From positions 1 to 52,035 of the IMG/VR virus record IMGVR_UViG_3300015371_000054: DNA of 52,035 bases, one strand, 5' to 3'. The notes beneath the pieces were generated by a model that was given only the letters and a program-made list of their open reading frames with translations, had not been told where the DNA came from and ran no database searches. The translations under genes and the position numbers were made by a program. The first letter of the stretch is position 1; each line of letters begins with the position of its first letter. This stretch comes from a virus. Shown here one piece after another: positions 33,191 through 52,035 of this stretch.

Positions 33191-33192
33191 TC

Positions 33193-34267: not shown

Positions 34268-34271
34268 GGAG

Positions 34272-34481: not shown

Positions 34482-34490
34482 CGTGCCGAA

Positions 34491-34536: not shown

Positions 34537-34550
34537 CTGAGGAGGCCAAC

Positions 34551-36522: not shown

Positions 36523-36532
36523 GGAGGTGAAC

Positions 36533-36858: not shown

Positions 36859-36859
36859 G

Positions 36860-37024
36860 GTGGCGCAGAACATTGGCGACGCTGTCGTCTACCACGTCTG
36901 CTCCCATCCCGGGCACTCCATCTCGATCAAGCTCGTACCCACGACGGGCGTCCTCGAAGCTGTTTGTCACGACTGCGACTTCGAGATAGCGTCCCCTACA
37001 GTGGTGGAACCATGCACGTCATAG
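36860..37024 (+). CDS. Small Cys/His-rich protein
   Basis: A 54-residue protein with GTG start after AGAGGAACTA. VCSHPGHS and VCHDCDFE offer a zinc site of the C-x-H...CxxC type. It overlaps the next start by 13 bases. The function is unknown. Confidence 0.55.
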   Translation: MAQNIGDAVVYHVCSHPGHSISIKLVPTTGVLEAVCHDCDFEIASPTVVEPCTS

Positions 37025-37608: not shown

Positions 37609-37617
37609 CGCAGACCG

Positions 37618-37704
37618 GTCGGCGAGGTGCCCAGTCGCGCAAGCATGGGAGCTCGGGTCATCGGATCCGCGCCTCCGGTAGCCGAGCTGCACCACCTCGC
37701 CGGC
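37618..37704 (+). ncRNA. Candidate structured RNA
   Basis: The 12-base arms 37618-37629 and 37693-37704 pair fully with one T-G (core CGGCGAGGTG / CACCTCGCCG). Inside, CCCA/TGGG (37630-37633 and 37646-37649) forms a small arm and AGCTCGG/CCGAGCT (37650-37656 and 37682-37688) a 7-bp arm. This gives a three-way junction of about 87 bases, with a strong terminator 22 bases downstream. No tRNA T-arm is seen. It follows HTH paralogue 3 in a gap with no gene. Confidence 0.45.
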
Positions 37705-37725
37705 ACAACCTGAACACCCCGATGA

Positions 37726-37755
37726 AGAGCCCTGGCGAACCCAGGGCTCTTTGTC
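37726..37755 (+). terminator. Rho-independent terminator
   Basis: AGAGCCCTGG and CCAGGGCTCT form a perfect 10-bp stem with loop CGAAC (37726-37750), followed by TTGTC. It ends HTH module 3 and the candidate RNA. Confidence 0.85.
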
Positions 37756-37778
37756 TGTCCCAAAGGTCAAAGGTACCG

Positions 37779-37961
37779 ATGAGTACAGAGTGTGAAGGCA
37801 AGACCACAACAAAGAAGCCCTGCCCGTGGAAGCCGGTGTTTAGGGTCACGACGAAGCTTCCGGGACCGAAGACTGAGGACCACTACTACTGCGAAGTGCA
37901 CGTCGACGCCGCTCTTAGGGCAGGCGGACGTGTGTTCAACCTAAGGACTCCACGGCGATGA
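37779..37961 (+). CDS. Small zinc-ribbon-like protein
   Basis: A 60-residue basic protein. ECEGKTTTKKPCPWKPVFR and HYYCEVHVDAALRAGGRVF fit a C...C...C-x-x-H metal site. It begins 24 bases after the terminator, with AAAGG upstream. The function is unknown. Confidence 0.6.
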   Translation: MSTECEGKTTTKKPCPWKPVFRVTTKLPGPKTEDHYYCEVHVDAALRAGGRVFNLRTPRR

Positions 37962-38251
37962 CCGACAAGGGACCGAAGTGCATGTTCTGTGGGAGGCGCG
38001 ATAAGACGCCAACTATAGGGAACCCGATCACGCAGACAACGTTCGGACCGTTCCACATCAAGTGCTGGCAGATGTCGGTCGTGCTCACCGCAGCCAAGCG
38101 GTGGTACGCGGCACAGCGAGAGGTCCAGGAACATCACCACGCGCGTGCAGACACAGGAGAAGAGTGGCAGTACGTGCCCGAACGACTCAACACGAACGTA
38201 GGCCAAGCAACCAGAGACCTGATCGAAGCGGTCAGGAATCTCGAACACTAG
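37958..38251 (+). CDS. Zinc-finger-like hypothetical protein
   Basis: A 97-residue protein with CMFCGRRD near the start and HIKCWQMS after it, a typical CxxC...HxxC site. A helical C-terminal half follows. It overlaps the previous gene (ATGA). The function is unknown. Confidence 0.62.
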   Translation: MTDKGPKCMFCGRRDKTPTIGNPITQTTFGPFHIKCWQMSVVLTAAKRWYAAQREVQEHHHARADTGEEWQYVPERLNTNVGQATRDLIEAVRNLEH

Positions 38252-38260
38252 GGAGGAACC

Positions 38261-38605
38261 ATGTCAATCACCAATCGGAAGAAGGCCCTGAACGCGGAGA
38301 TCGCTCAGCTTCAGAACCGTCTCGAGCGTCTGGTCGACGAGGCCATCAAGCTCGACGAACTCGTCGAGCGCCTACCGGATCTGGACCAGTACCCGGAGGG
38401 TGCCGTCATCTACTGGGAGCACGTCTTCTCGACGTCGACCAGGGTGTACACGTACTGTGCCATCAAGTGCAGCGGTGCTTGGTACACCAGCGGACCCAAG
38501 GCGCCGGGACCGTACACCGGCGAGCACCTGGCCGTGTTCATCGCCGATGGGAACCCGGGCAACTGCTACTGGGAGATCGACAGCATGACGCGGGTCGAAC
38601 TCTGA
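38261..38605 (+). CDS. Hypothetical protein with coiled coil
   Basis: A 114-residue protein. The first ~45 residues are a coiled coil (LNAEIAQLQNRLERLVDEAIKLDELVERL). The rest is a small beta domain (YTYCAIKCSGAWYTSG). A GGGAGG ribosome site precedes the ATG. The function is unknown. Confidence 0.62.
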   Translation: MSITNRKKALNAEIAQLQNRLERLVDEAIKLDELVERLPDLDQYPEGAVIYWEHVFSTSTRVYTYCAIKCSGAWYTSGPKAPGPYTGEHLAVFIADGNPGNCYWEIDSMTRVEL

Positions 38606-38787
38606 TGCAGGGTCACTTCAGCCTGACCAACTTCACCATTCGGATCTGCGTCCCCTACGAGCAGGAGGACGAGGTCAACGCGATGGACGACAGCGCGGTC
38701 AGCGACATCATCGACGAGGTCGAGCACAAGCTCAAGACGCTCAACCTCGACCTGCCTGAAGGGTGGAAGGTGGAGGTGCAAGGCTGA
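38605..38787 (+). CDS. Small acidic hypothetical protein
   Basis: A 60-residue protein (FTIRICVPYEQEDEVNAMDDS, then IIDEVEHKLKTLNL) with a beta-alpha-beta look, in one-base overlap with the previous stop. The function is unknown. Confidence 0.58.
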   Translation: MQGHFSLTNFTIRICVPYEQEDEVNAMDDSAVSDIIDEVEHKLKTLNLDLPEGWKVEVQG

Positions 38788-39092
38788 TGGCGCGAAGCGA
38801 CTACGCGCACTGGAACGAAGACCAAGACGCCATGTGGTGGCTGGAGGAGGGCCGATTCGGGAGCGAAGGCCCTCCCTACTGCGACGTGTGCGGCATCAAC
38901 CACGTCGGGGATTGCCCCGACGACATCGACGACGAGGAGGAAGACGATGAGGAAGAGGACGATGATCCTGAGTGTACTTCTGGTGACTGCAAGCTCATGT
39001 TCCCACACAGACGGTCCCGACATCAGTCCGACGGTGACTACGAGGGTCCCGGCTACGACGGCATCGGTCCCTTCAACGACAGTGACGCCTGA
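38787..39092 (+). CDS. Acidic Cys-containing hypothetical protein
   Basis: A 101-residue protein with a CDVCGINHVGDCPDD segment (possible zinc site) and a very acidic stretch (DDEEEDDEEEDDD). The last 146 bases overlap the next gene in another frame, so part of its C-terminus may be shaped by that gene's signal sequence. Confidence 0.55.
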   Translation: MARSDYAHWNEDQDAMWWLEEGRFGSEGPPYCDVCGINHVGDCPDDIDDEEEDDEEEDDDPECTSGDCKLMFPHRRSRHQSDGDYEGPGYDGIGPFNDSDA

Positions 39093-39234
39093 GCTCGTGC
39101 CACCTGTGCTGTCAGCGCCGGACACCATCGTGATCACGTCGGATCCAGACATCGCCGACACAGAAGTCGACGAACTCTGTGTCGAGGGTAGCCCCGTCGA
39201 CGAGGATGGCGATCCGTGTGAGGTGGGCATATGA
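38947..39234 (+). CDS. Lipoprotein, nested start in upstream gene
   Basis: A 95-residue protein with the signal MRKRTMILSVLLVTASSC. SSC is an acceptable lipobox (Cys18). The mature part is Thr/Pro/Val-rich, like a wall-spanning stalk, then acidic with two Cys. The ATG lies 146 bases inside the preceding gene in a different frame, a layout like Rz/Rz1 spanin genes, though the outer gene here has no membrane helix. Confidence 0.6.
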   Translation: MRKRTMILSVLLVTASSCSHTDGPDISPTVTTRVPATTASVPSTTVTPELVPPVLSAPDTIVITSDPDIADTEVDELCVEGSPVDEDGDPCEVGI

Positions 39235-39497
39235 AGACGGAACGTAGACCAGCGGAGGTCATGTACCTCTTCTACGTCAACGAGCACCGTCTGGTTCTCG
39301 GACGTGCGGGGCCTCACAGCAGGATGAGGGAGGACGCCATCCGTACTTGGAACGCCGGCAAGCGACGCATGCGACAGGAGAACATCTACGGAGTGCCCAA
39401 GCTGGAGGTCGTGATGATCCAGACGGCATCGAAGGTTGGGTTCCTCGACTACTACGGGACGTTCAAGTCCCTGAGCCAGATCAAGTGGGGGTTGTGA
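39231..39497 (+). CDS. Hypothetical protein
   Basis: An 88-residue basic protein (VMYLFYVNEHRLVLGRAG, IRTWNAGKRRMRQ), in ATGA overlap on both sides, preceding the ligase. The function is unknown. Confidence 0.6.
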   Translation: MKTERRPAEVMYLFYVNEHRLVLGRAGPHSRMREDAIRTWNAGKRRMRQENIYGVPKLEVVMIQTASKVGFLDYYGTFKSLSQIKWGL

Positions 39498-40381
39498 TGA
39501 AACCAATGCTGAGCCAGTCACTCGAGATCGGCAAGCCCAAGGACGCCAACCAGTGGGCTAGGGTCCAAGAGGACTTCTACTACATGGAGCCGAAGCTCGA
39601 TGGTTGGCGGATCCTGTTGGACTTCACCGGCCCCACGTTCCACGCCTGGACTCGAAGCGGTAGGGACATCGCCGAGAGTCTTGCAGGCTGGGTGACCACC
39701 TTCGACCCCGACCCCTATGCGGGCCTGATGTTGGACGCAGAACTGGGCTACCCAACGTGTTGGTTCCAGATCGACTACAACATGACGGCACGGGTGCTAG
39801 GGTCAGGTCCAGACGTCGCCATCGCGAAGTGGGAAGCGCACATGGAGCGACGCATGAACCTTGCGGCGTTCGTCTTCGACGTTCCGACCTACATCGAGCT
39901 GACCCAGTCAGCCCGTAATCGGATGCTGGCGACCATCATCGGCAACAAGGACCCACTTGCCGAACCCATCTGCAGGGTGACCGAGCTCGGGCCGTGGAAC
40001 GAGACAAAGTACGAAGAGCTCGTCGACCGCGGAGCCGAAGGTGTCATGCTCAAGAACGCCCAAGCGTGGTACCATTACGATGCTCGACCCACACAGACGT
40101 GGTACAAGGTCAAGAAGTACGAGACCGAAGATGCGGTCATCGTCAACTTCGAACCAGGTCAAGGGAAGTACGAAGGCCAGATCGGCAACGTCGTCTTCCA
40201 ACTCGAGGACGGACGGGTAGGCAAGTGCAGCGGGATGGACGATGCGACCCGTCGGGACATGAGCGACAACCGCGACGACTGGTTGGGCAGATGGATCGAG
40301 GTCCGCTTCTACGGAGGCGTCGGCCGTGACAAGCAGGGCATGCGACACCCGCAGTTCAAGAGGGTGCGAGACGACAAGTGA
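39497..40381 (+). CDS. ATP-dependent DNA ligase
   Basis: A 294-residue protein. MEPKLDGWR is motif I with the adenylated lysine (K33); LMLDAELGY, EGVMLKNA and TWYKVKKYETEDAVI are motifs III, IV and V. A C-terminal OB-fold follows (IEVRFYGGVGRD). The size matches small phage ligases that seal nicks in replication and recombination. It is coupled to both neighbours. Confidence 0.9.
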   Translation: MKPMLSQSLEIGKPKDANQWARVQEDFYYMEPKLDGWRILLDFTGPTFHAWTRSGRDIAESLAGWVTTFDPDPYAGLMLDAELGYPTCWFQIDYNMTARVLGSGPDVAIAKWEAHMERRMNLAAFVFDVPTYIELTQSARNRMLATIIGNKDPLAEPICRVTELGPWNETKYEELVDRGAEGVMLKNAQAWYHYDARPTQTWYKVKKYETEDAVIVNFEPGQGKYEGQIGNVVFQLEDGRVGKCSGMDDATRRDMSDNRDDWLGRWIEVRFYGGVGRDKQGMRHPQFKRVRDDK

Positions 40382-40551
40382 TCGGGTTCACGGTAGAGAT
40401 CGACACCAGCTGGTCCGGTGCTCCCTGGTACACCGTCAAGCTTGGCCCTCACGCAGTCTGGAGCGGTTTCGCTTCCAGCGAGGAGTCAGCTCTAGAGCAC
40501 GTAGCCAGTGCACTCAACCAACTCTGTAACCCTCCCGAAGAGGATTACTAG
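40378..40551 (+). CDS. Small hypothetical protein
   Basis: A 57-residue protein with GTG start overlapping the ligase stop. VEIDTSWSGAPWYTVKL and ASSEESALEHVASALNQL give a beta-alpha pattern. The function is unknown. Confidence 0.58.
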   Translation: MIGFTVEIDTSWSGAPWYTVKLGPHAVWSGFASSEESALEHVASALNQLCNPPEEDY

Positions 40552-40568
40552 TCATCTGATTTGACGTC

Positions 40569-40603
40569 TTGAGCTCGACATGTACTTCATATTATAATAA
40601 GTA
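40569..40603 (+). promoter_or_regulatory. Phage-type promoter
   Basis: TTGAGC at 40569-40574 and TATAAT at 40593-40598 are 18 bases apart; the box reads on as TATAATAAGTACA. It lies in the 75-bp gap before 40627 and probably drives the next unit, including the SNF2 helicase. Confidence 0.7.
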
Positions 40604-40626
40604 CACAAAGCGATAAGCGAGGCCGC

Positions 40627-40845
40627 ATGGAACCCGTGCTCACGTTCGAGGGCACACGAACCGAACTGACGTACCTCAAGGACATCCTGTCGATGTGGAT
40701 CGCGGGGTGCGAGGGGGAACTCCGGAACGTCTCCTCAGAAGTTCCGGACGAAGAGGTGCATTGGGCAGCATCTGGCATGCGCGAGATGATGACCAGCGCC
40801 ATGGAGATGCAAGTGCGACTGGAGGTGACACTCGCGAATGTCTGA
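40627..40845 (+). CDS. Small helical hypothetical protein
   Basis: A 72-residue acidic protein, mostly helical (LTYLKDILSMWIAGCEGEL, MTSAMEMQVRLEVTL). GAGG precedes the ATG. It is the first gene after the promoter at 40593. The function is unknown. Confidence 0.6.
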   Translation: MEPVLTFEGTRTELTYLKDILSMWIAGCEGELRNVSSEVPDEEVHWAASGMREMMTSAMEMQVRLEVTLANV

Positions 40846-41242
40846 CATCCCGGCGATGTTCCAGCACTGCTGTGATGTGTACGGCAAGATGTTGGAACAC
40901 GCTACCCGCGACCCGGAGACCGGTCACCAGCTGTACGAGGGTGCCTTGACCAAGCTGGTGACTGGCGAGATGGGTCTGTCGATGCCCTACTACAGCACGA
41001 CGACTCGGTTCCTGCGAGAGATGGACTGCATCAGGCAGCTTCGTCGGGGCGGAGGGGGGACGCCGTCAAGGTGGCTCCTGATCCAGACTCCCACAGAGGA
41101 GTTGTTCCGCTTCGCCATGTCCAAGATCAACGTTCAGGGAGGCTCCAACGAGGGCGCCCAAGCGTTGCGGGACATGAACGTGCGTCTGTCGGAACTCGAG
41201 CAGAGGATCGACGTGGTCGAAGCGACGCTGGAGGCGGGATGA
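40838..41242 (+). CDS. Putative winged-helix DNA-binding protein
   Basis: A 134-residue protein. MPYYSTTTRFLREMDCIRQLRRGGGGTPSRW has the order helix, recognition helix, then a Gly-rich wing and strand, typical of winged-helix proteins and like actinophage proteins I know with 'LxxMDCIRQxRRGG'. The C-terminal ~40 residues form a coiled coil (LSELEQRIDVVEATLEAG), probably for dimerisation. Confidence 0.6.
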   Translation: MSDIPAMFQHCCDVYGKMLEHATRDPETGHQLYEGALTKLVTGEMGLSMPYYSTTTRFLREMDCIRQLRRGGGGTPSRWLLIQTPTEELFRFAMSKINVQGGSNEGAQALRDMNVRLSELEQRIDVVEATLEAG

Positions 41243-41460
41243 GCGACAGCAACGGAGTCGACTTCCCCTTCCAGCCCACGCAGGTGGACATCAAGGTGAT
41301 CGGCCCGACCCCAGATGGCGGCTTCGTCATGGTGTGCCAGACCGCGTACGGCACCAACGCGTACTTCCTGACGCCTAGCGACTGGGAGAACTTCAAGGCG
41401 GCTGGCGACCAGATCGCTGGGAAGCGTCACATCCTCATCGCACGGGAGGTGCCTACATGA
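41239..41460 (+). CDS. Hypothetical protein
   Basis: A 73-residue protein (IKVIGPTPDGGFVMVCQTAYG, LTPSDWENFKAAG), probably a small beta fold; ATGA overlap with both neighbours. The function is unknown. Confidence 0.6.
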   Translation: MSDSNGVDFPFQPTQVDIKVIGPTPDGGFVMVCQTAYGTNAYFLTPSDWENFKAAGDQIAGKRHILIAREVPT

Positions 41461-41792
41461 GCGACACGACACTCGAGGAGGCCAAGCGCTGCCCTCGGTG
41501 CAAGCAGCCAGGGGTGCAAGCGCGGGCCATACCGGCAGAGGATCGTGATGGCATCGTGTACGTGTACACGTGTCTCAACGAACGGTGCCCAAGGTGGGAC
41601 GTGTTCGACGGGCATGGCATGACCTGGCTGGTCCAGATCCGCAACGACGGAACGATCCCCAACAGGGAGGTCGACAAGCCCGGCAAGGAGTTCCCGGCGA
41701 TGAGCCCCTCAATGCTCGCGACGGGACAACGGCTCGTGGAGGACGCCGTCCAACAAGACCTCCGAATCCAACAGGAAAGAGAGACCGGATGA
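41457..41792 (+). CDS. Zinc-ribbon hypothetical protein
   Basis: A 111-residue protein with CPRCKQPG and YTCLNERCPRW, a clear two-knuckle zinc ribbon. A helical C-terminus follows. The function is unknown, but such ribbons often bind nucleic acid or protein partners. Confidence 0.65.
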   Translation: MSDTTLEEAKRCPRCKQPGVQARAIPAEDRDGIVYVYTCLNERCPRWDVFDGHGMTWLVQIRNDGTIPNREVDKPGKEFPAMSPSMLATGQRLVEDAVQQDLRIQQERETG

Positions 41793-42394
41793 AGCGGGCC
41801 CCAACCGTAGCGGCGGCATTGGCGGGACTGGCGGCGGCTTCGGCCGTGGCGTTGATCTCGTCCGGTGCTTCCGCCCAAGCTTGCGGAGGGAACAACACCT
41901 CCGTGAACGCCCCAATCACGTGCAACGCATCCAAAGCCGGCATCGACGGCAGCGTGAGCGTGACCGCAGACGGACACATCACCGTGACCTTCAGTTCCCA
42001 AATCCCGTCGAAGCCGGGAGACTGGGTGCAGGTCATCGCGCACTCGGGACTGAGCGGTGGAGGCGGCCCCGAGCACGCTGTCGCTGATCCCGTCGCACCA
42101 GGGTCCACCACCAAGACGGTGACGCTGCTGGCCTCCGAGTGTGGCGGCCAGGTCGACGTGAAGTACGTGCGAGGCGGAACGCCGACCACGGACCACATCA
42201 GCGACGTGTGGCGCATCATGGGTCCGGTGATCTACCTCCCCAACTGCAACACGGAGGAGACGACAACCACCAATGGCACAACGACCTCGACCCAAGCCAC
42301 GACCCCGTCCACGTCCACGCCCGGGCTACTGACGAGCACGACGACGAGCACAACGACTCCGGGCCCTTCAGGGACCCTTCCCGGGACGCTGTGA
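41789..42394 (+). CDS. Secreted protein with Thr/Ser/Pro-rich tail
   Basis: A 201-residue protein. The N-terminus MKRAPTVAAALAGLAAASAV...SSGASAQA is a type I signal with an ASA cleavage site. The mature domain (about 30-150) has four Cys and an Ig-like beta pattern (GHITVTFSSQIPSKPGDWVQV). The last ~50 residues are a Thr/Ser/Pro stalk, typical of wall-spanning or glycosylated regions. It lies directly before the helicase gene. Confidence 0.7.
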   Translation: MKRAPTVAAALAGLAAASAVALISSGASAQACGGNNTSVNAPITCNASKAGIDGSVSVTADGHITVTFSSQIPSKPGDWVQVIAHSGLSGGGGPEHAVADPVAPGSTTKTVTLLASECGGQVDVKYVRGGTPTTDHISDVWRIMGPVIYLPNCNTEETTTTNGTTTSTQATTPSTSTPGLLTSTTTSTTTPGPSGTLPGTL

Positions 42395-42395
42395 C

Positions 42396-43823
42396 ATGAC
42401 CGGTCTTGCCGATCTCTGGCCGTTCCAACTGCACGCCGTGGAGAAGGGACGGAACTCCCTCTTCTTCCTGTGCTGCGACGACATGGGGTCTGGCAAGACC
42501 TACATCGGGTGCGGGATGGATCTCGTGCGACGTGAACAATCGCCCGGTCTGTCCCGCACCCTCGTGCTCGCCCCCATCTCAACACACCAAGGTTCCGACA
42601 GCTCGTGGAAGGAAACGTACGAGCGTGTCACCGGTCTGCCTGCATTTGTGATAGACCCGAAATCGAGGGCGTGGAGCTGGAGGCAGTTCGAGGAGTACAC
42701 TGAACCGTGCGCCTTCATCATGCACTACGAAGCGGTCCGCTTGATGCCGGAGCTCCACCGCTTCACCTGGCTGCACGTCATTCTGGATGAGTGCCACCGG
42801 ATTCAGAACCGGAAGGCCATTCAGACGCAACAGGTCAAGAAGTTGAAGACCGCCTACAAGCTGGGTCTGTCAGGGACCCCAGCCACCACCAACCCTGACA
42901 AGTTCTGGTCCGTGCTCAACTGGCTGGATCGGAAAGAGTGGAGTTCGTACTGGAAGTTCAGGGCACTCTACATTGTGGATGAGCCCGTCTACGGTGCGGA
43001 CGGAGAGATCGCTGGCGGAGGTCAAGCGCGGCAGATCATCGGTGTGCAGAACGTGGAACAGCTCCACCGCCGGATCGAGCCGTATTACATTCGCCGAACG
43101 AAGAAGCAGGTCTTGCCTGACCTACCGGACAAGCTGCCGACCTCGAAGAGGTTCGTAGAGCTAGGGCCGGAACAGAGGGCTGCGTACAAGTCAATGAAGC
43201 AGGACATGATCGCCTGGGTCAAGCGTATGCAGGCGGAGACCGGTAGTGACGAGATGACTCCGATCATGGCGCAGAATGCGGCCGTCAAGGCGTTGCGTCT
43301 TGTCCAGTTCGCCGACGCGTACGCCGTGTGGGATGAGGAGACCGGGAAGGTCAAGCTGAGCGAACCAAGCTCCAAGCTGGACGAGGTCATGATGATCCTG
43401 AAAGAGAACCCCGACCAACAGTTCGCCATCTGGTCAGCCTTCCGGCAGATGATCGACCTCGTCGAGGTACGGTTGAAGAAAGCAGGGATCGGGTACTCCA
43501 TTGTCACTGGTGCGATCCCTTCAGCCGAACGTGGTGCACAGATCCAGGCCTTCCAAGAGGGACGCAACCGGATCTTCATCGGCACCATCGCAGCGGGCGG
43601 AGTCGGCATCACGCTCACGGCAACCAATATGCCGATCTTCATCGACCGAGATCGTTCGCCAGCTCTGAACCGTCAGGCAGAGGATCGCCATCACAGGGCG
43701 GGGCAGAAGCGCGAAGTGCAACCCATCGACATCATGGCACGTGGCACCATCGACCAGACCAGGCTGGAGCAGATGGAAGCGAAGTGGTCCTGGATCCTCA
43801 CACTGTTGGGAGACAACCTATGA
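42396..43823 (+). CDS. SNF2-type helicase / translocase
   Basis: A 475-residue superfamily 2 ATPase. Visible motifs: DDMGSGKT (I, K34), LDECHRI (II), GLSGTPA (III), GTIAAGGVGITLT (V) and AEDRHHRAGQ (VI), in the usual two RecA-like domains. These enzymes move along duplex DNA; phage members often aid replication start or recombination. It heads toward the nuclease and recombinase genes downstream. Confidence 0.9.
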   Translation: MTGLADLWPFQLHAVEKGRNSLFFLCCDDMGSGKTYIGCGMDLVRREQSPGLSRTLVLAPISTHQGSDSSWKETYERVTGLPAFVIDPKSRAWSWRQFEEYTEPCAFIMHYEAVRLMPELHRFTWLHVILDECHRIQNRKAIQTQQVKKLKTAYKLGLSGTPATTNPDKFWSVLNWLDRKEWSSYWKFRALYIVDEPVYGADGEIAGGGQARQIIGVQNVEQLHRRIEPYYIRRTKKQVLPDLPDKLPTSKRFVELGPEQRAAYKSMKQDMIAWVKRMQAETGSDEMTPIMAQNAAVKALRLVQFADAYAVWDEETGKVKLSEPSSKLDEVMMILKENPDQQFAIWSAFRQMIDLVEVRLKKAGIGYSIVTGAIPSAERGAQIQAFQEGRNRIFIGTIAAGGVGITLTATNMPIFIDRDRSPALNRQAEDRHHRAGQKREVQPIDIMARGTIDQTRLEQMEAKWSWILTLLGDNL

Positions 43824-44134
43824 ACGGTCAATCACCCCCCGACTCGACGAGCGTCGGGGGTAGCGACAATGGCGAGCGTGGTGACTCGTCGCTGGCGCCG
43901 GCTTCCCCCGGGACTCCTCCCGGTCCTGGGGGTAAGCTGTCACAAGAGGAGGCACTGGAGCGGCTCGAACGGTACTGGGAAGGTCTCCATTGCATCCTGT
44001 GGTTCGACTGGGACCTGGGCCGGCCTGACTGCAAGCAGCGGGCACGCGAAGGTGCCCTGAAGTTCCTCATTGGCATGGACCTGGTAGAGAGCGAGTCATC
44101 TGAGATGACGACTAGCTTTGGTCATGTAGGATAA
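43820..44134 (+). CDS. Hypothetical protein
   Basis: A 104-residue protein starting in ATGA overlap with the helicase. The first ~45 residues are Gly/Ser/Pro-rich and probably disordered. The rest is helical (LERLERYWEGLHCILWFDWDLG). The function is unknown. Confidence 0.58.
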   Translation: MNGQSPPDSTSVGGSDNGERGDSSLAPASPGTPPGPGGKLSQEEALERLERYWEGLHCILWFDWDLGRPDCKQRAREGALKFLIGMDLVESESSEMTTSFGHVG

Positions 44135-44136
44135 GG

Positions 44137-44150
44137 TATAATAAGGTATC
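44137..44150 (+). promoter_or_regulatory. Replication-operon promoter (leaderless)
   Basis: TATAAT at 44137-44142 continues as TATAATAAGGTAT. The GTG start of the next gene is at 44151, only eight bases later, and no ribosome site fits. The mRNA should begin at or near the start codon. It would drive the operon that runs through the circle junction to WhiB. No good -35 is visible. Confidence 0.6.
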
Positions 44151-45224
44151 GTGATAACGCAAGACGGGTTGCCAGCGATCCATACGTCGGACCGGATGTC
44201 CTTCAAGGGGTGCCGAGACCGGTGGGACTGGATGTCAGATCTCCGCCAGGGGTACAAGCCGATCCAGACACCCAAGCCGCTGTACTTCGGTACGGCAGTG
44301 CATGCGGGACTGGAGACGTACTACCACCCGGTAACGTGGGGCTGGTTGCAAGATGATCGGCGTCCTCTTGTGCACGCAGCATCGCTTCAGGCGTTCCTTG
44401 ATTCTTTGGCGGATACCAAGAAGCGGTACCTGAAGATGACCGGACGTGAGGCTCTGGACCCAGATCAGAAGGAAGAGTACGAAGCAGAGCGTGAGCTCGG
44501 CAAGGGGATGCTTCGGAACTACTTCGAGTGGGCTCCGACAGTAGACCACTTCACACCGATCGCTGTCGAAGTCAAGTTCAGAGTGCCGATCATGCATGAG
44601 GGTGTGCAGATCGCGTGGTACCAAGGCCGAGTAGACCTCCTCGTCCAAGATGATGCGGGGTTCTACTGGATCTTCGACCACAAGACAACCAGCCGTTGGC
44701 AGGACACGTCAGAGTTCCTTGAGCTGGACGAACAGATGGGATCGTACATCTGGGCGCTACGTTCGGAACTGAAGCTGAACATCATCGGTGCTACGTACAA
44801 TGAGTTGTACAAGGCCTTCCCTGAGCCGCCGAAAGAGAATCTGACGTGCAGACAGGGTCGCTGGTTCAGTGTCAACAAGCAGCAGGCCACGTCGTACGAA
44901 GTGTACAAGGCGACCGTGATGGAGCAGGACCCCAAGGCATACGCTGAGGGCCTGTACAACGACTTCCTCCAGTACCTGAAGGCTGAAGGGCCGAAGTACT
45001 TCAAGCGTACGACAGTCCATCGCTCGGTGTCGGAGATGAGAGATCAGGGCAACCGCATCGTCCTAGAGACACTGGACATGCTAGGGAACCCACGCATCTA
45101 CCCGAACCCGACAAGGTTCCGGTGCGACCACTGTCCAATGCGTGGACCGTGCCTTCTGCGTCGCTCGGGTGGAGATGAGCAGTGGATGTTGGATGAGTAC
45201 TTCGTAAGGGAGCACCGGACATGA
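44151..45224 (+). CDS. Cas4/RecB-like nuclease (PD-(D/E)XK, likely Fe-S)
   Basis: A 357-residue protein. YFGTAVHAGLE (H51) opens the fold; QGRVDLLVQ and FDHKTT give the Asp and the D-x-K of the catalytic core. One Cys near the start (C21) and three near the end (C325, C328, C334) match the Fe-S layout of AddB/Cas4 nucleases. It probably resects DNA ends for the recombinase encoded next. GTG start. Confidence 0.87.
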   Translation: MITQDGLPAIHTSDRMSFKGCRDRWDWMSDLRQGYKPIQTPKPLYFGTAVHAGLETYYHPVTWGWLQDDRRPLVHAASLQAFLDSLADTKKRYLKMTGREALDPDQKEEYEAERELGKGMLRNYFEWAPTVDHFTPIAVEVKFRVPIMHEGVQIAWYQGRVDLLVQDDAGFYWIFDHKTTSRWQDTSEFLELDEQMGSYIWALRSELKLNIIGATYNELYKAFPEPPKENLTCRQGRWFSVNKQQATSYEVYKATVMEQDPKAYAEGLYNDFLQYLKAEGPKYFKRTTVHRSVSEMRDQGNRIVLETLDMLGNPRIYPNPTRFRCDHCPMRGPCLLRRSGGDEQWMLDEYFVREHRT

Positions 45225-46000
45225 CATCGTTGACCGACCTAGCAACCGACATGCCACCTGAGGTGCTGACCGCAGAGACCCTAGGAGGACTCGAAGTGGT
45301 GACCGTCCAAGCGGCGGTGCAGTACGTCAACATGCTTCTGTACGGCGAGCCAGGTGTCGGTAAGACCGTACTGGCAGCAAGCGCAGCAGCCGTACCAGAG
45401 ATGAGTCCGGTACTGTTCCTTGACATCGAAGGCGGAACGCTGTCAGCCGCCAAGATGGGGTTCGACTGCAGAGTCGTCCGCATCAAGAAGTGGGCAGACA
45501 TGCAGAAGGCCTACGAGGCACTGCTTCGTGGGACCAAGTACAAGACAGTCATCCTGGACTCGTTGACCGAGATCCAGAAGTTCTCGATGGCCGAGATCAT
45601 GCGTCAGGTCGTCGAGGAAGATGGCGACCGCGATCCAGAAGTCCCCTCCGTCCGAGAGTGGGGCAAGAACGGAGAGCAGACTCGTCGGTGTGTCCGTGGG
45701 TTCCGTGACCTGCCGATGAACGTCATCTTCACGTGCCTGTCAGACTCTGACAGGGACAAGAGCGGTAACGTCGTCAAGACGCGACCGTCATTGACCGGTA
45801 AGCTCAAGCAGGAAGTCGCAGGGCACGTCGACATCGTCTCCTACATGTACAAGAAGACGGTACAGAACGACACCCAGCGGCTGTTGTTGACCAGCGGTAC
45901 AGACAAGTACGTAGCGAAGGACCGCACCAACAGCTTGCCGGCAATCCTGCAGAACCCGACCATGCAGGACATCTTCGCTGCGGTTCACACCAACAACTGA
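45221..46000 (+). CDS. Sak4-like RecA-type recombination ATPase
   Basis: A 259-residue protein. GEPGVGKT at 42-49 is Walker A, VLFLDIEGG and TVILDSLTEI follow as RecA-core motifs. Size and position after a Cas4-like nuclease and before a DUF669 protein match Sak4-type phage single-strand annealing/recombination proteins. It overlaps the nuclease gene (ATGA). Confidence 0.85.
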   Translation: MTSLTDLATDMPPEVLTAETLGGLEVVTVQAAVQYVNMLLYGEPGVGKTVLAASAAAVPEMSPVLFLDIEGGTLSAAKMGFDCRVVRIKKWADMQKAYEALLRGTKYKTVILDSLTEIQKFSMAEIMRQVVEEDGDRDPEVPSVREWGKNGEQTRRCVRGFRDLPMNVIFTCLSDSDRDKSGNVVKTRPSLTGKLKQEVAGHVDIVSYMYKKTVQNDTQRLLLTSGTDKYVAKDRTNSLPAILQNPTMQDIFAAVHTNN

Positions 46001-46017
46001 CAACTGGAGTTGACATC

Positions 46018-46515
46018 ATGGGATTCCGAGTGAACATGGACGACGTCGGAAGCGGCTTCGAGCCGCTTCCGAACGGCACCTACATCGTCGAGATCGTCGG
46101 CGGTGAGGCACGGGAGGCTGGCGATTCCGCCAAGAACCCCGGCGCCTGGTACGGTGCCCTGGAGATGGACGTCAAGAGCCCGGCCGACTTCGAAGGCCGG
46201 AAGCTCTTCACGAACTTCAACATCGTCCCCACGAGCCTGTTCACGCTCAAGCAGCTGGCCGTCGCGTCGGGCATCGACACCGACGCGATCAGTGACTCGC
46301 TGGGGGATGACTTCCCGGACGAGCCGGACCTGCTGCCCCACCAGACCGAGGCCGCCAAGGCGTTCGTCGAGGCCGTCATCGAGGCCGTGCAGGGCTCGAT
46401 GGTGAAGGTGCTGAACAAGCAGAAGCCGTACGATGGCGAGATGCGGAACAACGTCAAGAAGATCATGGCCGTCAGCGACGAGGACGCCGAGTCCCTGTCG
46501 CTCCTGCCGGACTGA
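46018..46515 (+). CDS. DUF669-like single-stranded DNA-binding protein
   Basis: A 165-residue acidic protein. GSGFEPLPNGTYIVEIVGGEAR and GALEMDVKSPADFEGRKLFTNF, then LKQLAVASGID, follow the DUF669 pattern seen next to Sak4-type genes. It likely covers ssDNA in place of an SSB. GC content is higher than its neighbours. A CTGGAG ribosome site precedes the ATG. Confidence 0.8.
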   Translation: MGFRVNMDDVGSGFEPLPNGTYIVEIVGGEAREAGDSAKNPGAWYGALEMDVKSPADFEGRKLFTNFNIVPTSLFTLKQLAVASGIDTDAISDSLGDDFPDEPDLLPHQTEAAKAFVEAVIEAVQGSMVKVLNKQKPYDGEMRNNVKKIMAVSDEDAESLSLLPD

Positions 46516-46708
46516 TCTTCGGGTCGTCGAGCCCTCCAAGGCCTCCCAACTTCCCTGCGGCGGTTGCTACACCAACGTCGTATCAGGAAGACACCCACGG
46601 GAGAGTACAGGGGGCTCGACACAGGAGCCGGGATGACACCCGGTGCCCCGGAGCTCCGGCGAGCAACGCGCCCTGTCGCGTAACAGGATCGACACCTGTC
46701 CGGGGTCG
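46516..46708 (+). other. Structured gap before primase (inverted repeats)
   Basis: No clear gene. GTCGAGCCC (46526-46534) and GGGCTCGAC (46612-46620) are perfect inverted repeats that close a 95-base structure, extendable by two pairs. Inside, CTTCC/GGAAG and GTTG/CAAC can pair. A perfect 12-bp palindrome CCGGAGCTCCGG lies at 46648-46659, and ACAGG...CCTGT at 46683-46699. An ATG at 46633 opens a 16-codon frame. It may be a leader RNA of the primase gene or an origin-like site. Confidence 0.45.
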
Positions 46709-48916
46709 ATGATCACCACAAGCGAGGAAGCCACCAAGAGGCGCTCCGTCTTCTTTGAAGCGGTCTTTGGTGACCTCCAAGGTTACGTGTGCGTTGCCAC
46801 ACGGCGCGGAGGAACCAAGGCGTTCAAGGAAGAGTTCTTTGAGTGGCCCGGGCAGAAGGAACAACTGCTCCGGCACATACTCGGACGGGCTGTCTCCGAC
46901 GACGTCTGGTACTGCCCTACTCTGCTTACAGGCAGTAAGAGAGTCAAAGAGAACGTTGGGAGGAGCACAGTTGTCTGGGCTGACCTAGACTCGTGCGCCC
47001 CAGAGAACTGTCGTCTCAAGCCGACATTCGTTATCGAGACCTCACCCAATCGGTTCCAGGCGCTTTGGCGTATGACTGAACCGGTTGTTGGCTGGGATGC
47101 CGAAGACATGTCGAAGCGCATTGCGTACGCTCATCATGATCAGGGTGCTGACATCTCTGGTTGGGACCTGACACAGTTGCTCAGAGTGCCGTTCACGACC
47201 AACTTCAAGTACGGGTCGAACATCACCGAAGGGCCGATGGTCAAGGTCATCAAGGTGGAAGATGCCACGTACACGCTCGAGTCCATGATCGAGCAGTACC
47301 CACAGGTCGAGGGACAGAGCGATGCGGTCGCTGTGCCGATGCCGGACGTTGGTGACCTGCCTGGTAAGTCCGGCGAAGAGATCATGGCGGAGCACAAGTT
47401 CAACCTGCAACCGCTAGCGTTCCATTTGTTCGTGGAGCAGCCCGAAGAGCGGAAGTGGTCGCAGGCACTCTGGCAACTGGAACTGTTCTGCTTCGAAGCG
47501 GGCATGAGTCCAGAGGAAGTGTTCGTCGTCGCACGAGATAGCGCCTGCAACAAGTTTGCACGCGACGGTGTGTCGATGAACCAACTCTGGAAGGATGTCA
47601 TTCGAGCGGGCAACAAGTTCCGGTCGCAGCAGGTAGCCATCACAGGGTTCGTCAAAGAGTTCAAGCCACTACTGACAGCGGAAGAACGTACGGCGGCAAA
47701 GGACCAAGTCACCTTCGTTGAAGACTACATCTCGTGGGCTCGAACCATCGGTGATGCTGCACCCCAGTATCACGAAGCGGGCGCCTTCACAATCCTGTCA
47801 GCGTTGATGGCAGGCGCAGTGAAGTTGCCGACCTCGTTCGGGACTCTCGTTCCCAACCTGTGGTTCATGATCTTGGCAGACACGACGTTGACCCGGAAGT
47901 CGACGGCTATGGACCTTGCTATGGACCTGCTTGTCGAAGTTGACCCTGACTGTATCATAGCGACTGACGGTTCAGTTGAGGGTCTGTTCACTTCGTTGAG
48001 CTTCCGTCCAAGTCGTCCGTCAGTGTTCCTGCGAGACGAGTTCAGCGGGCTGGTGGAAGCGATGACCCGAAAGGACTACTATGCCGGCATGGCGGAGACG
48101 TTCACCAAGTTGTACGACGGCAAGTACCAGAAGCGGCAGCTCCGGAAGGAAACCATCGAGGTCAAGGATCCGGTCCTCATACTCTTTGCCGGTGGTATTA
48201 GGGACCGAGTACTATCGCTTCTTACGTACGAGCATGTTGGTTCTGGCTTCTTGCCTCGGTTCGTGTTCATCACGGCTGAGTCGGATATCTCACGCGTGCG
48301 CCCGTTGGGTCCGCCGACAGATCGAAGCCTGGGACGAAGATCAGAGCTTCTGAAGGTAATGCAACGCACGTTCGACTACTACCACTCAGTAGAGTCGATC
48401 AAGATCGGTGACCGTACAGTGTCATCGCCAAAGCGTTGGGAGTGCTCACTGACTCCTGATGCGTGGTTGCGTTACAACGAGTTCGAGACGGACATGATGG
48501 AAGCGGCACTTGAGAGTCGGAATCCGGACCTCATGACGCCGATGTTCGACCGCCTCGCAAAGTCCGTACTCAAGTGTGCAGTGCTACTGGCGGCACTGAG
48601 GTGTGAGGACAGTGTGCAGGTCACCAAGCTAGACCTGCTCAAAGGTATTTCGTACGCGGAGGTGTGGCGGGAGTTCACTGTCGACATCCTTCACAACATA
48701 GGTCGTACGACCAGTGAGAGACTGGTCGCTACGGTGCTCAAGTACATCGAACGGAAGGACGGTGTACTGCGTTCGGAGATCATGCAGGTCTACCACCTGG
48801 ACTCTCGGACAGCTGAGCATATTCTGTCAACGCTTGACCAACGGGGGCAGATCACCAGAATCAAGTCCGGTCGATCCGAGCGACTGCATGCAGTCCAAAT
48901 CAGAGGAGTGTCATGA
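46709..48916 (+). CDS. Primase-helicase (AEP-like primase plus DUF3987-like ATPase)
   Basis: A 735-residue replication protein. VVWADLDSC carries the D-x-D (about D92, D94) of archaeo-eukaryotic primases. The C-terminal half is a helicase-like ATPase of DUF3987 type: LADTTLTRKSTAMD aligns with a Walker A but lacks its glycines, and SVFLRDEFSGLVEAM is Walker B-like. A winged-helix may close the protein (GVLRSEIMQVYHLDSRTAEHIL). The start at 46709 was chosen because EEATKRRSVFFE is the usual opening; GTG at 46643 is in frame. Confidence 0.8.
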   Translation: MITTSEEATKRRSVFFEAVFGDLQGYVCVATRRGGTKAFKEEFFEWPGQKEQLLRHILGRAVSDDVWYCPTLLTGSKRVKENVGRSTVVWADLDSCAPENCRLKPTFVIETSPNRFQALWRMTEPVVGWDAEDMSKRIAYAHHDQGADISGWDLTQLLRVPFTTNFKYGSNITEGPMVKVIKVEDATYTLESMIEQYPQVEGQSDAVAVPMPDVGDLPGKSGEEIMAEHKFNLQPLAFHLFVEQPEERKWSQALWQLELFCFEAGMSPEEVFVVARDSACNKFARDGVSMNQLWKDVIRAGNKFRSQQVAITGFVKEFKPLLTAEERTAAKDQVTFVEDYISWARTIGDAAPQYHEAGAFTILSALMAGAVKLPTSFGTLVPNLWFMILADTTLTRKSTAMDLAMDLLVEVDPDCIIATDGSVEGLFTSLSFRPSRPSVFLRDEFSGLVEAMTRKDYYAGMAETFTKLYDGKYQKRQLRKETIEVKDPVLILFAGGIRDRVLSLLTYEHVGSGFLPRFVFITAESDISRVRPLGPPTDRSLGRRSELLKVMQRTFDYYHSVESIKIGDRTVSSPKRWECSLTPDAWLRYNEFETDMMEAALESRNPDLMTPMFDRLAKSVLKCAVLLAALRCEDSVQVTKLDLLKGISYAEVWREFTVDILHNIGRTTSERLVATVLKYIERKDGVLRSEIMQVYHLDSRTAEHILSTLDQRGQITRIKSGRSERLHAVQIRGVS

Positions 48917-49629
48917 ACGACGCTGTCGTCATCATCAGCGGAGGCATGGACAGCACCGTGCTCGCCGCATACGTCAAGGACCTGTTGCCCCCGGATGGGC
49001 TGGTGCACGGCCTGTCCTTCAACTACGGGCAGCGCCACTTCAAGGAGTTGGGGTACGCTCGGCGCAACGAGACCCTCAGTTCGTGGACCGAGGTCAACCT
49101 ACAGAACCTCAACCCGCTGCTCCAGGGCAGCTCGCTGACCTCGCCGGACATCGAGGTGCCGGACGGGCACTACGCCGCCGAGACGATGAAGCAGACCGTC
49201 GTGCCGAACCGCAACATGATCATGCTGTCGATCGCTGTCGGGTACGCCGTCAGCAAGCAGTCGTCGTTCGGCGTCTGGACGGGTGTGCACGCAGGTGACC
49301 ACTTCATCTACCCCGACTGTCGACCCGAGTTCATCAAGGCGGCGTCCAAGGCGGCTTCCGTCGGCAACGAGGGGTTCTGGGACACCGTCGGGAAGCTCCA
49401 GGCCATCAACGCACCGTTCAGCGAGATGACCAAGGCCCAGATCGTCGAGCTCGGCACCCAGCTGGAGGTCAACTTCGCCCAGACGTGGTCCTGCTACAAG
49501 GGTGGCATGATCCACTGCGGACGTTGCGGTACCTGTGTCGAGCGCAAGGAGGCGTTCGCCATCGCCGGCGTGCCCGACCCCACGCCGTACGAGGACCCGA
49601 TCTTCGAAGTCGCAGCGTTCCACGGATGA
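48913..49629 (+). CDS. queC: 7-cyano-7-deazaguanine (preQ0) synthase
   Basis: A 238-residue protein. IISGGMDST (residues 7-15) is the PP-loop for ATP; SFNYGQRH and NRNMIMLSIA follow the QueC order. C-terminal Cys residues in SCYKGG and HCGRCGTC form the zinc site. It converts carboxy-deazaguanine to preQ0. No extra amidotransferase domain is present. It overlaps the primase stop (ATGA), so modification and replication are co-expressed. Confidence 0.93.
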   Translation: MNDAVVIISGGMDSTVLAAYVKDLLPPDGLVHGLSFNYGQRHFKELGYARRNETLSSWTEVNLQNLNPLLQGSSLTSPDIEVPDGHYAAETMKQTVVPNRNMIMLSIAVGYAVSKQSSFGVWTGVHAGDHFIYPDCRPEFIKAASKAASVGNEGFWDTVGKLQAINAPFSEMTKAQIVELGTQLEVNFAQTWSCYKGGMIHCGRCGTCVERKEAFAIAGVPDPTPYEDPIFEVAAFHG

Positions 49630-49952
49630 CCGCGCACTGGCCGACTCCGGCGCCCGTCGTTGAAGGCGGGCGCCATGCCAAGTGGGACGTGCAGGTTCGT
49701 CCCAGCGTGCGACCGACAGCGTCCAAGGATCATCAGGCACTCAATGCGCAAGCCGGTCGAGGTCGTGAACAGCATCGCGAGGCAATGCACAGAGAGCGTC
49801 ACTCGCGGTGGGTCAACTTCCTGCTCGGGGTCGACGAACAGGGGAAGGAAGTGTGGAGCGAGCCGAAGAAGATCCACACGACCGGAATCCTGCCCTGGAC
49901 CAAGCGACGCAAGAACCGTCAGAAGCGAAAGGCGGCACGACGTGACCGTTAG
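49626..49952 (+). CDS. Basic hypothetical protein in queC-queD operon
   Basis: A 108-residue, strongly basic protein (WTKRRKNRQKRKAARRDR at the end) with a conserved-looking middle (HSRWVNFLLGVDEQGKEVWSEPKKIH). It is in ATGA overlap with queC. It may bind nucleic acid. The function is unknown. Confidence 0.6.
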   Translation: MTAHWPTPAPVVEGGRHAKWDVQVRPSVRPTASKDHQALNAQAGRGREQHREAMHRERHSRWVNFLLGVDEQGKEVWSEPKKIHTTGILPWTKRRKNRQKRKAARRDR

Positions 49953-50271
49953 CCTCAACCCAGATGACGAGTTCGAGGCCACTCTGATCGAGATGGTCAG
50001 AGTGCACCGGTTCAAGAAGTCGGTATACGGTTCGAACGAGGACCCCTTCGCCAACTTCTACGACGCAGCGCACCACCTAGCGATGACGCCTCTCGAGGCG
50101 GCCATCGCGTTCCACGGCAAGCACGACGCCAAGATGACCAAGTGGCTCCGGGACGGACAACCGACCGATGCGCCTGGCATGGAGGACATGTTCATCGATC
50201 GGGCTGTGTACTCGGTCATCGAGCTCGCCCTCTGGAACAGGCGGACAGCCAACGGGCGGTGGGGCGAGTGA
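49942..50271 (+). CDS. Hypothetical protein, possibly nucleotide-modification associated (DUF1599/DUF6378-like)
   Basis: A 109-residue protein with GTG start. HRFKKSVYGSNEDPFANFYDAAHHL, a later KHDAKMTKWLRDG and DRAVYSVIELAL follow the order of small all-alpha proteins often found with modified-base phage genes. The resemblance is by eye and moderate. Its place between queC and queD supports a pathway link. Confidence 0.5.
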   Translation: MTVSLNPDDEFEATLIEMVRVHRFKKSVYGSNEDPFANFYDAAHHLAMTPLEAAIAFHGKHDAKMTKWLRDGQPTDAPGMEDMFIDRAVYSVIELALWNRRTANGRWGE

Positions 50272-50741
50272 GCGGGGAACTCTTCACCGTAACCAAGGAC
50301 GTCGAGTTCGACATGGGGCATCGAGTTCCGAACCATAAGTCGAAGTGCCGGAACCCTCACGGTCATCGCTACAAGGTTGCTGTCACCATCGAAGGCACCC
50401 TACAGCGAGAGGGTTCCAGCGAGGGCATGGTGGAGGACTTCGGTGACCTCAAGCAGGTCATGATGGAGAAGATCCACGACCCACTCGATCACGGCTTCAT
50501 GGTGTACCGAGACGACTTCCAACTGGTCGCCGCGTTCATACACGACGAGACCGAGGAAGGCGACGAGGAGTCACAGCTGTACCCCAAGCACGACTGGAAG
50601 GTCATCGTCGTCGACTTCGTACCAACGGCCGAGAACCTGGCGCGATGGTGCTACGACCGCCTTCGCGAGCACTACCCACTCACGATCCGGTTCGTCGAGG
50701 TCTGGGAGACGCCAACGAGCAAGGCGACGTACCCGACATGA
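50268..50741 (+). CDS. queD: 6-carboxytetrahydropterin synthase
   Basis: A 157-residue PTPS-family protein with GTG start (GTGA overlap). FDMGHRVP (H18) and CRNPHGHRY (C27, H31, H33) supply the zinc histidines and catalytic Cys; DFGDLK, PLDHGFM and VPTAENLA complete the family pattern, ending VWETPTS. It turns dihydroneopterin triphosphate into carboxytetrahydropterin, step two of the preQ0 pathway. Confidence 0.92.
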   Translation: MSGELFTVTKDVEFDMGHRVPNHKSKCRNPHGHRYKVAVTIEGTLQREGSSEGMVEDFGDLKQVMMEKIHDPLDHGFMVYRDDFQLVAAFIHDETEEGDEESQLYPKHDWKVIVVDFVPTAENLARWCYDRLREHYPLTIRFVEVWETPTSKATYPT

Positions 50742-51022
50742 ACTGGACCGACGACATCCCGCCCGAAGACAAAGACCGGATGCTCACGATGACCGAACGC
50801 GTTCGCGTGTTCCAGGTGTATGCAGAGACGGCGCGAATGCTGTCGGCGAAGCTGCAGTGGATCGAAGCGAAGGGGTTCGAGACGAAGTTGACCATGGGCA
50901 TGTTCGGGCCTCTGGGGGACTTCAACTTCTGGATCATCTGCCGAGAGAAGCCCGACCGAGAAAGGATCGACAGTGACACGCTTGCTGCGTTTGAACGAGC
51001 TCTATCCAAGCACCCAAGGTGA
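50738..51022 (+). CDS. Hypothetical protein in queD-queE operon
   Basis: A 94-residue protein with helical N-terminal half (RMLTMTERVRVFQVYAETARML) and FGPLGDFNFWIICREKPDRE in the second half. It overlaps queD by four bases and queE by 50. The function is unknown; its place suggests a link to the modification pathway. Confidence 0.58.
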   Translation: MNWTDDIPPEDKDRMLTMTERVRVFQVYAETARMLSAKLQWIEAKGFETKLTMGMFGPLGDFNFWIICREKPDRERIDSDTLAAFERALSKHPR

Positions 51023-51677
51023 GGGGCCGCGGACAGGAGAACGAACACTCTTCGTCCGCTTCTCAGGGTGCAACCTCCGTTGCCCGGGATGGCCGTGTGA
51101 TACGCCGCACGCGATCTTCCCGGATCAGTGGAAGGACGATCCGGTCTACACGGGAGAAGGGTTGGGTCTTCTAGTCGTCAACACCATGCTCGACCAGAAC
51201 ATCCACAATCTGTGCATCACGGGAGGTGAACCGTTCATGCAGCCGCCGACCGAGCTGGAGGCGTTCGTGCGCTACGTCAACAGGCTGACGCACACAACGA
51301 TCGACGTGTTCACCAACGGAACGTTCCTCTTCCCCGCCTGGTGCGCAGCATCCAACGTCGCCGTCGTGATGGACTGGAAGCTCACAGGGTCAGGCGACTC
51401 GAAGAAGAACCAGGACGAGCGTCTCATGAACGCGACGCATCGTCTGGGGCACAAGGACAACATCAAGTTCGTGGTCAAGGACATCCATGACCTCGACGAA
51501 GCTCGATACGCCTACGAGATGCTCCACACGTTCCAGGGCACCTTCTGGGTGGGTCGCGTTTGGGGTGAACTCTCAGATGCGGACCTCGTCGAATACATGA
51601 CCGAGTGGCGCCTCCCCTGGCGCCTCAATGTCCAGACGCACAAGCTGATCTGGCCCGGAGTGGAGAGAGGAATATGA
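50973..51677 (+). CDS. queE: 7-carboxy-7-deazaguanine synthase (radical SAM)
   Basis: A 234-residue protein with GTG start. STQGEGPRTGERTLFVRF leads to the cluster cysteines C33, C37 and C42, spaced CX3CX4C rather than the common CX3CX2C. ITGGEPFMQP, TNGTFLFP and DWKLTGSGD are further QueE landmarks. It makes carboxy-deazaguanine from carboxytetrahydropterin. The stop overlaps the folE start (ATGA). Confidence 0.9.
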   Translation: MTRLLRLNELYPSTQGEGPRTGERTLFVRFSGCNLRCPGWPCDTPHAIFPDQWKDDPVYTGEGLGLLVVNTMLDQNIHNLCITGGEPFMQPPTELEAFVRYVNRLTHTTIDVFTNGTFLFPAWCAASNVAVVMDWKLTGSGDSKKNQDERLMNATHRLGHKDNIKFVVKDIHDLDEARYAYEMLHTFQGTFWVGRVWGELSDADLVEYMTEWRLPWRLNVQTHKLIWPGVERGI

Positions 51678-52035
51678 ACGGTTACGACGATGACCTCATT
51701 GCTGGTGAGGTCAAGCAGGTCCTGCAGAAGCTGTTCCCACAGGAGGACTTCAGGGACGCGGAGCTCCAGGAGACGCCACTCCGGTTCGCACGGATGCTGG
51801 TCGAGCTCACAACACATGAGCCGTTCAAGTTCACGACCTTCGAGTCGGACGCAGACGAGATGGTGGTCATCCGCGACATCTCGTTCGTCTCGTTGTGTGC
51901 CCACCATATCGTTCCGTTCGTCGGCGTGGCGCATATCGGGTACGTACCAAACGGGAAGGTTGGTGGACTCAGCAAGTTCGCCCGAGTCGTGCGTCAGATG
52001 GCAAAGGGACTCTGGAACCAGGAGAACCTGACGAC
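51674..52035 (+). CDS. folE: GTP cyclohydrolase I, N-terminal part (continues at 1)
   Basis: The first 120 codons of folE are in this window end; the last 71 bases repeat the window start, so the true protein joins at 51964/1 and is 184 residues long. VSLCAHHIVPFVG gives zinc ligands C75 and H78, and HIGYVPNGKVGGLSKFAR the substrate region. A GAGAGGA ribosome site precedes the ATG. Confidence 0.93.
   Translation, partial: MNGYDDDLIAGEVKQVLQKLFPQEDFRDAELQETPLRFARMLVELTTHEPFKFTTFESDADEMVVIRDISFVSLCAHHIVPFVGVAHIGYVPNGKVGGLSKFARVVRQMAKGLWNQENLT
51965..52035. repeat. Right copy of 71-bp terminal identity
   Basis: Identical to bases 1-71. Trimming it gives a circle of 51,964 bp with folE intact. 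Confidence 0.95.

Follow-up and report, generated by a model that had tools for sequence, protein, structure and literature searches.

We report that a viral DNA of 52,035 nucleotides (IMG/VR record IMGVR_UViG_3300015371_000054, positions 1 to 52,035; the whole stretch is referred to as the window) carries the genes predicted to make 7-cyano-7-deazaguanine (preQ0) from guanosine triphosphate (GTP) together with a gene for a short predicted DNA-guanine transglycosylase, DpdA, and that these genes are embedded in a replication operon. We consider it probable that this DpdA swaps essentially every guanine of the phage DNA for self-made preQ0, and that guanine-containing sites are thereby spared from restriction. 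The genes, the predicted fold and catalytic residues of DpdA, the conservation of the cassette in related phages and a footprint in the use of restriction-site words are described below, and alternative readings are weighed where the data bear on them.

The window begins and ends with an exact 71-bp direct repeat (1-71 = 51965-52035) and therefore represents a circular or circularly permuted genome of 51,964 bp, with a G+C content (GC) of 60.6%. The operon order is DUF3987 primase - queC - orfA - orfB - queD - orfC - queE - folE - mazG - dpdA - UDG-polA (UDG, uracil-DNA glycosylase), all on the plus strand. Seven boundaries (primase/queC, queC/orfA, orfB/queD, queD/orfC, queE/folE, folE/mazG and mazG/dpdA) are 4-bp overlaps of the type ATGA or GTGA, and the overlap at orfC/queE and at dpdA/UDG-polA is 50 nt. 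The fusion to the replication operon through overlapping start and stop codons, proposed in an earlier note on this DNA, is thus seen from the primase to UDG-polA.

FolE, GTP cyclohydrolase I, is split by the junction (51674..52035 and 1..264, i.e. 72-264 after the repeat); the frame is uninterrupted from 51674 to 264, and the joined protein of 184 aa matches Pfam GTP_cyclohydroI (2e-52) and has the residues CAHH and EHLC. QueD, 6-carboxytetrahydropterin synthase (50268..50741), matches Pfam PTPS (4e-33) and NCBIfam QueD above cut-off and has GH...C...HGH. QueE, 7-carboxy-7-deazaguanine synthase (50973..51677; PHROG QueE 7e-32, NCBIfam QueE_Clost 2e-32, PDB QueE 6nhl 4e-5), has GCNLRCPGWPC and GGEP. 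QueC, preQ0 synthase without an amidotransferase domain (48913..49629; Pfam QueC 1e-54, TIGR00364 above cut-off), has SGGMDST and a CX2CX2C-type zinc site (HCGRCGTC), and its nearest phage relative is that of Arthrobacter phage Sonali (51%). Family searches and residues agree with the earlier note, which had named these four genes with their key residues and placed mazG and dpdA after the junction, where they are found (261-644 and 641-1387), and the profile searches show the GTP-to-preQ0 set to be complete within the replication operon. The note was silent on the radical S-adenosylmethionine cluster loop of QueE, which is CX3CX4C and not the usual CX3CX2C. This loop (GCNLRCPGWPCD) is kept across the whole of a large phage clade (L035-L113), and in phiST-like QueE the loop is longer still (GCTHRCFFGEGGWCD); judged by profile, the window protein remains a predicted QueE.

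The transglycosylase gene (641..1387) encodes 248 aa that match no Pfam or NCBIfam model. Among solved structures, a profile of its family (14 sequences) matched only a DNA-guanine transglycosylase (PDB 7ui4, E 1.7e-4), a bacterial DpdA the motifs of which, H-x-LG and S-x-D-S/T, align with those of the window protein but the chain of which is longer (436 aa). The AlphaFold2 model (pLDDT 90.8) had tRNA-guanine transglycosylases (TGT) as top Foldseek matches in the PDB (E 2e-7, TM 0.65) and, among viral models, gp042 of Cellulophaga phage phiST (TM 0.85). Full-length alignments keep D46 (LDNG), D76 (LPD), H165-x-LG and D190 (S-x-DTS), and 99% or more of the aligned relatives have these four residues; the protein thus has both the (beta/alpha)8 barrel and the catalytic-type Asp residues (D46, D76, D190) of the TGT/DpdA superfamily. 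The marks of a tRNA-guanine transglycosylase proper, i.e. a match to the Pfam TGT model and a CxCxxC zinc site, are absent, and its few cysteines follow another pattern. In tblastn searches, matches were obtained only in Cellulophaga, Flavobacterium, Chryseobacterium, Bacillus and Campylobacter phages (24-27% identity), one group of which is annotated as DNA guanine transglycosylase, and none in mycobacteriophages. The homologous short DpdA proteins of phiST (gp042) and Campylobacter phage CPt10 (CPt10_0541), which are 24-26% identical to that of the window, belong to phages of other families, and phiST has no queC next to dpdA.

A DpdA1 of the Rosebush/CAjan/9g type was considered and rejected, with no DpdA1 phage among the tblastn matches; when aligned by hhalign with actinophage DpdA1 the Asp motifs are in register (DSGAF, LDVIGD, STDSS), though at a negligible probability (0.5%). 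Profile, fold and motif evidence together lead us to read the protein as a predicted DpdA of the TGT superfamily, of the short type (approximately 250 aa) that has no zinc site. The earlier note's DNA transglycosylase accordingly keeps its place inside the TGT/DpdA family by the 7ui4 match and the TGT fold, with its type refined to that of phiST and Campylobacter phages and not that of the preQ0 mycobacteriophages.

Neither QueF nor a GATase_6 amidotransferase was found in a search of the genome (ArcS was not searched separately), and the predicted base is therefore most likely preQ0, with ADG being possible. This gene content, FolE, QueD, QueE and QueC with DpdA and without QueF or amidotransferase, is that of group 2 in PMC6884629; phages with this set and no amidotransferase carry dPreQ0, and deletion of dpdA restores restriction (PMC6884629). 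The four synthesis genes are also those of the queuosine pathway, and they might do no more than boost the supply of queuosine precursors for host tRNA and leave the DNA unmodified. We find this highly improbable, given that a DNA-type transglycosylase is co-transcribed and conserved with them, that PF01702 and QueF were not found, and that the genes are located between primase and polymerase.

Relatives were collected from IMG/VR as 16 loci from a profile search and 79 from a search based on the atypical loop of QueE; a single-sequence search of IMG/VR gave no close relatives of the window DpdA or polymerase, and no bacterial or prophage copies were found with the pattern used. The dominant order is primase-queC-(orfA/orfB)-queD-queE-folE-(mazG)-dpdA-polA. 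DpdA of the window type is present in 69 of the 79 QueE-selected contigs, the other 10 being truncated and ending at most 4.5 kb from queE; dpdA adjoins polA in 55 of these loci, and mazG is directly upstream of dpdA in 34 of the 69. Clustered at 50% identity, the DpdA sequences fall into 73 groups, with polA adjacent in 52 of the 61 testable ones, and the UDG motifs are intact in 51/65 polymerases.

The same gene order is present in the cultured Bacillus phages BSP7/BSTP8 and Weizmannia phage Youna2, and partially in Brevundimonas phage StAshley. Their dpdA genes are unannotated or misnamed (L003 3480-4268, L010 7211-7981, L011 6975-7775 and L013 7773-8561), being listed as hypothetical and in sister phages as NADR, integrase or polynucleotide kinase. 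BSP7/BSTP and Youna2 share with the window the arrangement primase-queC-orf-queD-(orf)-queE-folE-orfs-dpdA-UDG/polA, and differ in having an extra kinase-like gene before dpdA, a degenerate UDG motif and polA in two open reading frames (ORFs), split in an intron-like manner at the KAVNFG motif; their DpdA is 24-27% identical to that of the window and they have no A/T-only footprint (see below). In phiST, CPt10, Youna2 and BSP7 (L002 7502-7999, L004 6798-7340, L010 6663-7214 and L013 7213-7776), a small P-loop kinase-like gene lies beside the short dpdA; none was found in the window.

Masking of every guanine would leave just four 4-bp palindromes visible to enzymes, namely those built of A and T alone (AATT, TTAA, ATAT and TATA). 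AATT is the site of MluCI/Tsp509I and TTAA that of MseI; for ATAT and TATA we know of no common enzyme. The window (1..51964) has no AATT (Markov expectation 11.3) and a single TTAA (5.8), and guanine-containing palindromes are at expectation. Among the relatives, AATT and TTAA, respectively, were observed/expected at 0/63 and 56/56 in G001 (51-kb), 0/31 and 0/27 in G004, and 0/20 and 0/9 in G003; AATT was 0/13 in G005 (first 20 kb) and 21/95 in G002, and TTAA was 0/36 in G007 (first 60 kb), 0/15 in G008 and 1/30 in G006. Neither word is depleted in seven other whole contigs. In 16 cassette genomes no guanine-containing 4-mer is depleted, and neither is any 5-mer, 6-mer or two-base interrupted palindrome, whatever its bases; several DpdA1 controls do have purged 5- or 6-mers. 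The guanine-free AAAA/TTTT is strongly depleted in G004 (L319-L321; 1 observed, 33 expected), L047, L062 and L082.

For a comparison across non-redundant loci with a length of 9 kb or more, a word was called purged at an observed/expected ratio ≤0.25 and P <2e-3; these thresholds are our own choice, and the contrast between cassette and control loci was noticed in the course of the analysis and not planned. A guanine-containing 4-bp palindrome is purged in 1/68 cassette loci vs 49/139 controls (pooled Fisher p 3e-9), i.e. 22/58 DpdA1 loci and 14/42 and 13/39 in two sets of random viral contigs. The first random set had a GC of 0.63 and mostly CTAG purges, and the second was therefore added; CTAG avoidance is a common bacterial bias. 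Within GC 0.44-0.60 the guanine-palindrome contrast holds (p 0.0002-0.014 including CTAG). As for AATT and/or TTAA, 9 out of the 60 cassette loci that could be tested have purged them, vs 1/105 controls (1/41 DpdA1, 0/27 and 0/37 random; pooled Fisher p 5e-4).

These numbers also bear on the degree of modification. DpdA might replace merely a fraction of the guanines, such that restriction is lowered with not all sites hidden, and the measured phages of the FolE-QueD-QueE-QueC-DpdA type are indeed all partly modified, e.g. 28% of G in Rosebush and 32% in CAjan (PMC6884629). We regard this as rather unlikely for the window phage, since DpdA1 phages with queC and queE purge guanine palindromes in 16/43 loci, unlike the cassette phages, and the window DpdA is not of the DpdA1 type. 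DpdA1-type preQ0 phages (PMC6884629) resemble the window in having FolE, QueD, QueE, QueC and DpdA without amidotransferase and in their predicted base, preQ0; they differ in carrying DpdA1, with 28-32% of G modified, where the window has a short DpdA between folE/mazG and polA. Moreover, the DpdA1 actinophages have the order dpdA-queC-queD-queE-folE beside terminase, unlike the window.

The loss of AATT and TTAA could also have a source that is uninformative on guanine, i.e. cleavage of host DNA at these words by a phage-encoded nuclease, or a general avoidance of A/T-rich words. The window has HNH and PD-(D/E)XK genes, and in a synonymous-codon shuffle its depletion is not specific to palindromes, other A/T-only words being low too, as is AAAA in a few relatives. 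Such an origin is improbable in our view: ATAT and TATA have the base composition of AATT and TTAA and are purged nowhere, the lost word is AATT in some relatives, TTAA in others and both in yet others, the footprint varies among contigs of a single metagenome, and the sparing of guanine-containing sites would be left unexplained. The differences within metagenomes (L080 vs L058 and L104; L037 vs L045) also led us to reject a sequencing-library artefact as the cause of zero AATT/TTAA.

The footprint is what one would expect of DNA in which practically every guanine is hidden from restriction enzymes. We infer full replacement because of this footprint and because the phiST/Campylobacter DpdA subfamily (DpdA3), to which we take phiST gp042 and CPt10_0541 to belong, reportedly gives full replacement of G. 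The role in restriction evasion, which the earlier note had drawn by analogy, has thereby gained support from genome composition, with the base itself being predicted.

Several observations weigh against complete replacement or against the assignment of DpdA on which it builds. The window genome has zero PF01702 matches, and its DpdA is only approximately 25% identical to any annotated DpdA. The footprint of the window alone is modest (AATT P ~1e-5, TTAA P ~0.02), and the shuffle result given above applies to it; with GC-matched controls, which are few, the A/T-only contrast goes in the same direction and is not significant. In L076, a relative in which the genes are ordered differently, GATC is at 8/51 (observed/expected), and in CPt10 (L477, 1-50000), which has a homologous DpdA, CATG was observed 4 times vs 88 expected, i.e. 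a guanine-containing site is still under selection there.

With these points weighed, we favour essentially complete replacement, which might proceed as follows. FolE, QueD, QueE and QueC of the phage would make preQ0 from GTP, and the compact DpdA would exchange it for DNA guanine at essentially every position, most likely after or during replication. Enzymes with G in their site would then cease to cut, and such sites could be kept, whereas the guanine-free AATT and TTAA would still be vulnerable and be purged where the host has a matching enzyme. Situated between primase and polymerase, the pathway would supply the base while the DNA is copied. The primase (46643..48916) is the first cassette gene and of the DUF3987/RepB type (Pfam DUF3987 2e-19, RepB_primase 3e-6; PHROG DNA primase 1e-97). 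MazG (261..644; Pfam dUTPase_2 7e-5, PHROG pyrophosphatase 1e-7), a predicted MazG/dUTPase_2-like all-alpha nucleotide pyrophosphohydrolase of a family also seen in relatives, has the EXXE...EXXD motif. DNA polymerase A (1338..3674; Pfam UDG 1e-27, DNA_pol_A 5e-54, exo 2e-7), the last gene of the conserved cassette, has an N-terminal family-4-like uracil-DNA glycosylase domain with four cysteines and a 3'-5' exonuclease. MazG, acting on the nucleotide pool, and the polymerase-fused glycosylase would be accessory.

Insertion by way of nucleotides is possible but not favoured, and we consider it quite unlikely: MazG would make dGMP, DpdA would swap its base, a kinase would restore the triphosphate and the adjacent polA would insert it replicatively. 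A minimal barrel of approximately 250 aa without the TGT zinc site, mazG just upstream in 34/69 loci, polA adjacent in 55 and the kinases beside dpdA in phiST, CPt10, BSP7 and Youna2 would suit such a route. However, no nucleotide kinase was found in the window, where the sole Walker A motif in a plausible ATPase is that of an AAA_24 protein, and the idea that the system of this phage includes a kinase was rejected. We likewise rejected the dpdA-polA adjacency as proof of insertion at the nucleotide level, as KurtStettler, an E. coli phage of the DpdA1 type, has polymerase genes in the neighbourhood of dpdA too; MazG beside a UDG-polymerase fits uracil sanitation equally well, and DpdA insertion is generally viewed as post-replicative.

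Three small extra ORFs inside the operon were not mentioned in the earlier note. The small basic protein OrfA (49626..49952) has no Pfam, PHROG or NCBIfam match, and homologues are at the same position in some relatives (profile matches in 14/96 loci). OrfB (49942..50271; phrog_6802 4e-4), a small all-alpha protein with homologues in 24/96 related loci and the motif DPFxNFxDxAxxL...LDRAVYSVIAL, resembles MazG/DUF1599 by eye only, and no Pfam match was found for it in the window or in relatives. OrfC (50738..51022) has no family match in Pfam, PHROG or NCBIfam and, by profile search of the related loci, is seen in the window alone. Elsewhere in the window, several small predicted proteins at 31617-36522 have N termini that resemble a lipobox (VGACTT, VAGCGTH, ILGACAP and LAGCGCGG) and might constitute a phage lipoprotein cluster, and tRNA and Rfam scans gave no matches.

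The pathway and its role are already known. The replication-embedded primase-to-polymerase cassette appears to be new, as do its wide occurrence, the presence of unannotated dpdA genes in cultured relatives, the loop seen in QueE and, most of all, the footprint confined to A/T-only words; we found no earlier report of any of these in the open literature searched, which is incomplete. It is plausible, with about equal reason to doubt it, that a large uncultivated group of phages of approximately 51-54 kb replaces nearly every guanine with a 7-deazaguanine by means of such a short-DpdA cassette and that bacteria have answered with A/T-only restriction enzymes. If true, there would be genomes with zero AATT or TTAA in which all guanine-containing sites are free to stay, and guanine camouflage would show its expected natural limit, the guanine-free sites. 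Complete replacement and the insertion route are testable in the cultured phages with an overlooked dpdA (BSP7, BSTP8, Youna2 and StAshley), and word usage may provide a sequence-only readout of how complete phage base modification is and which restriction enzymes the hosts use.

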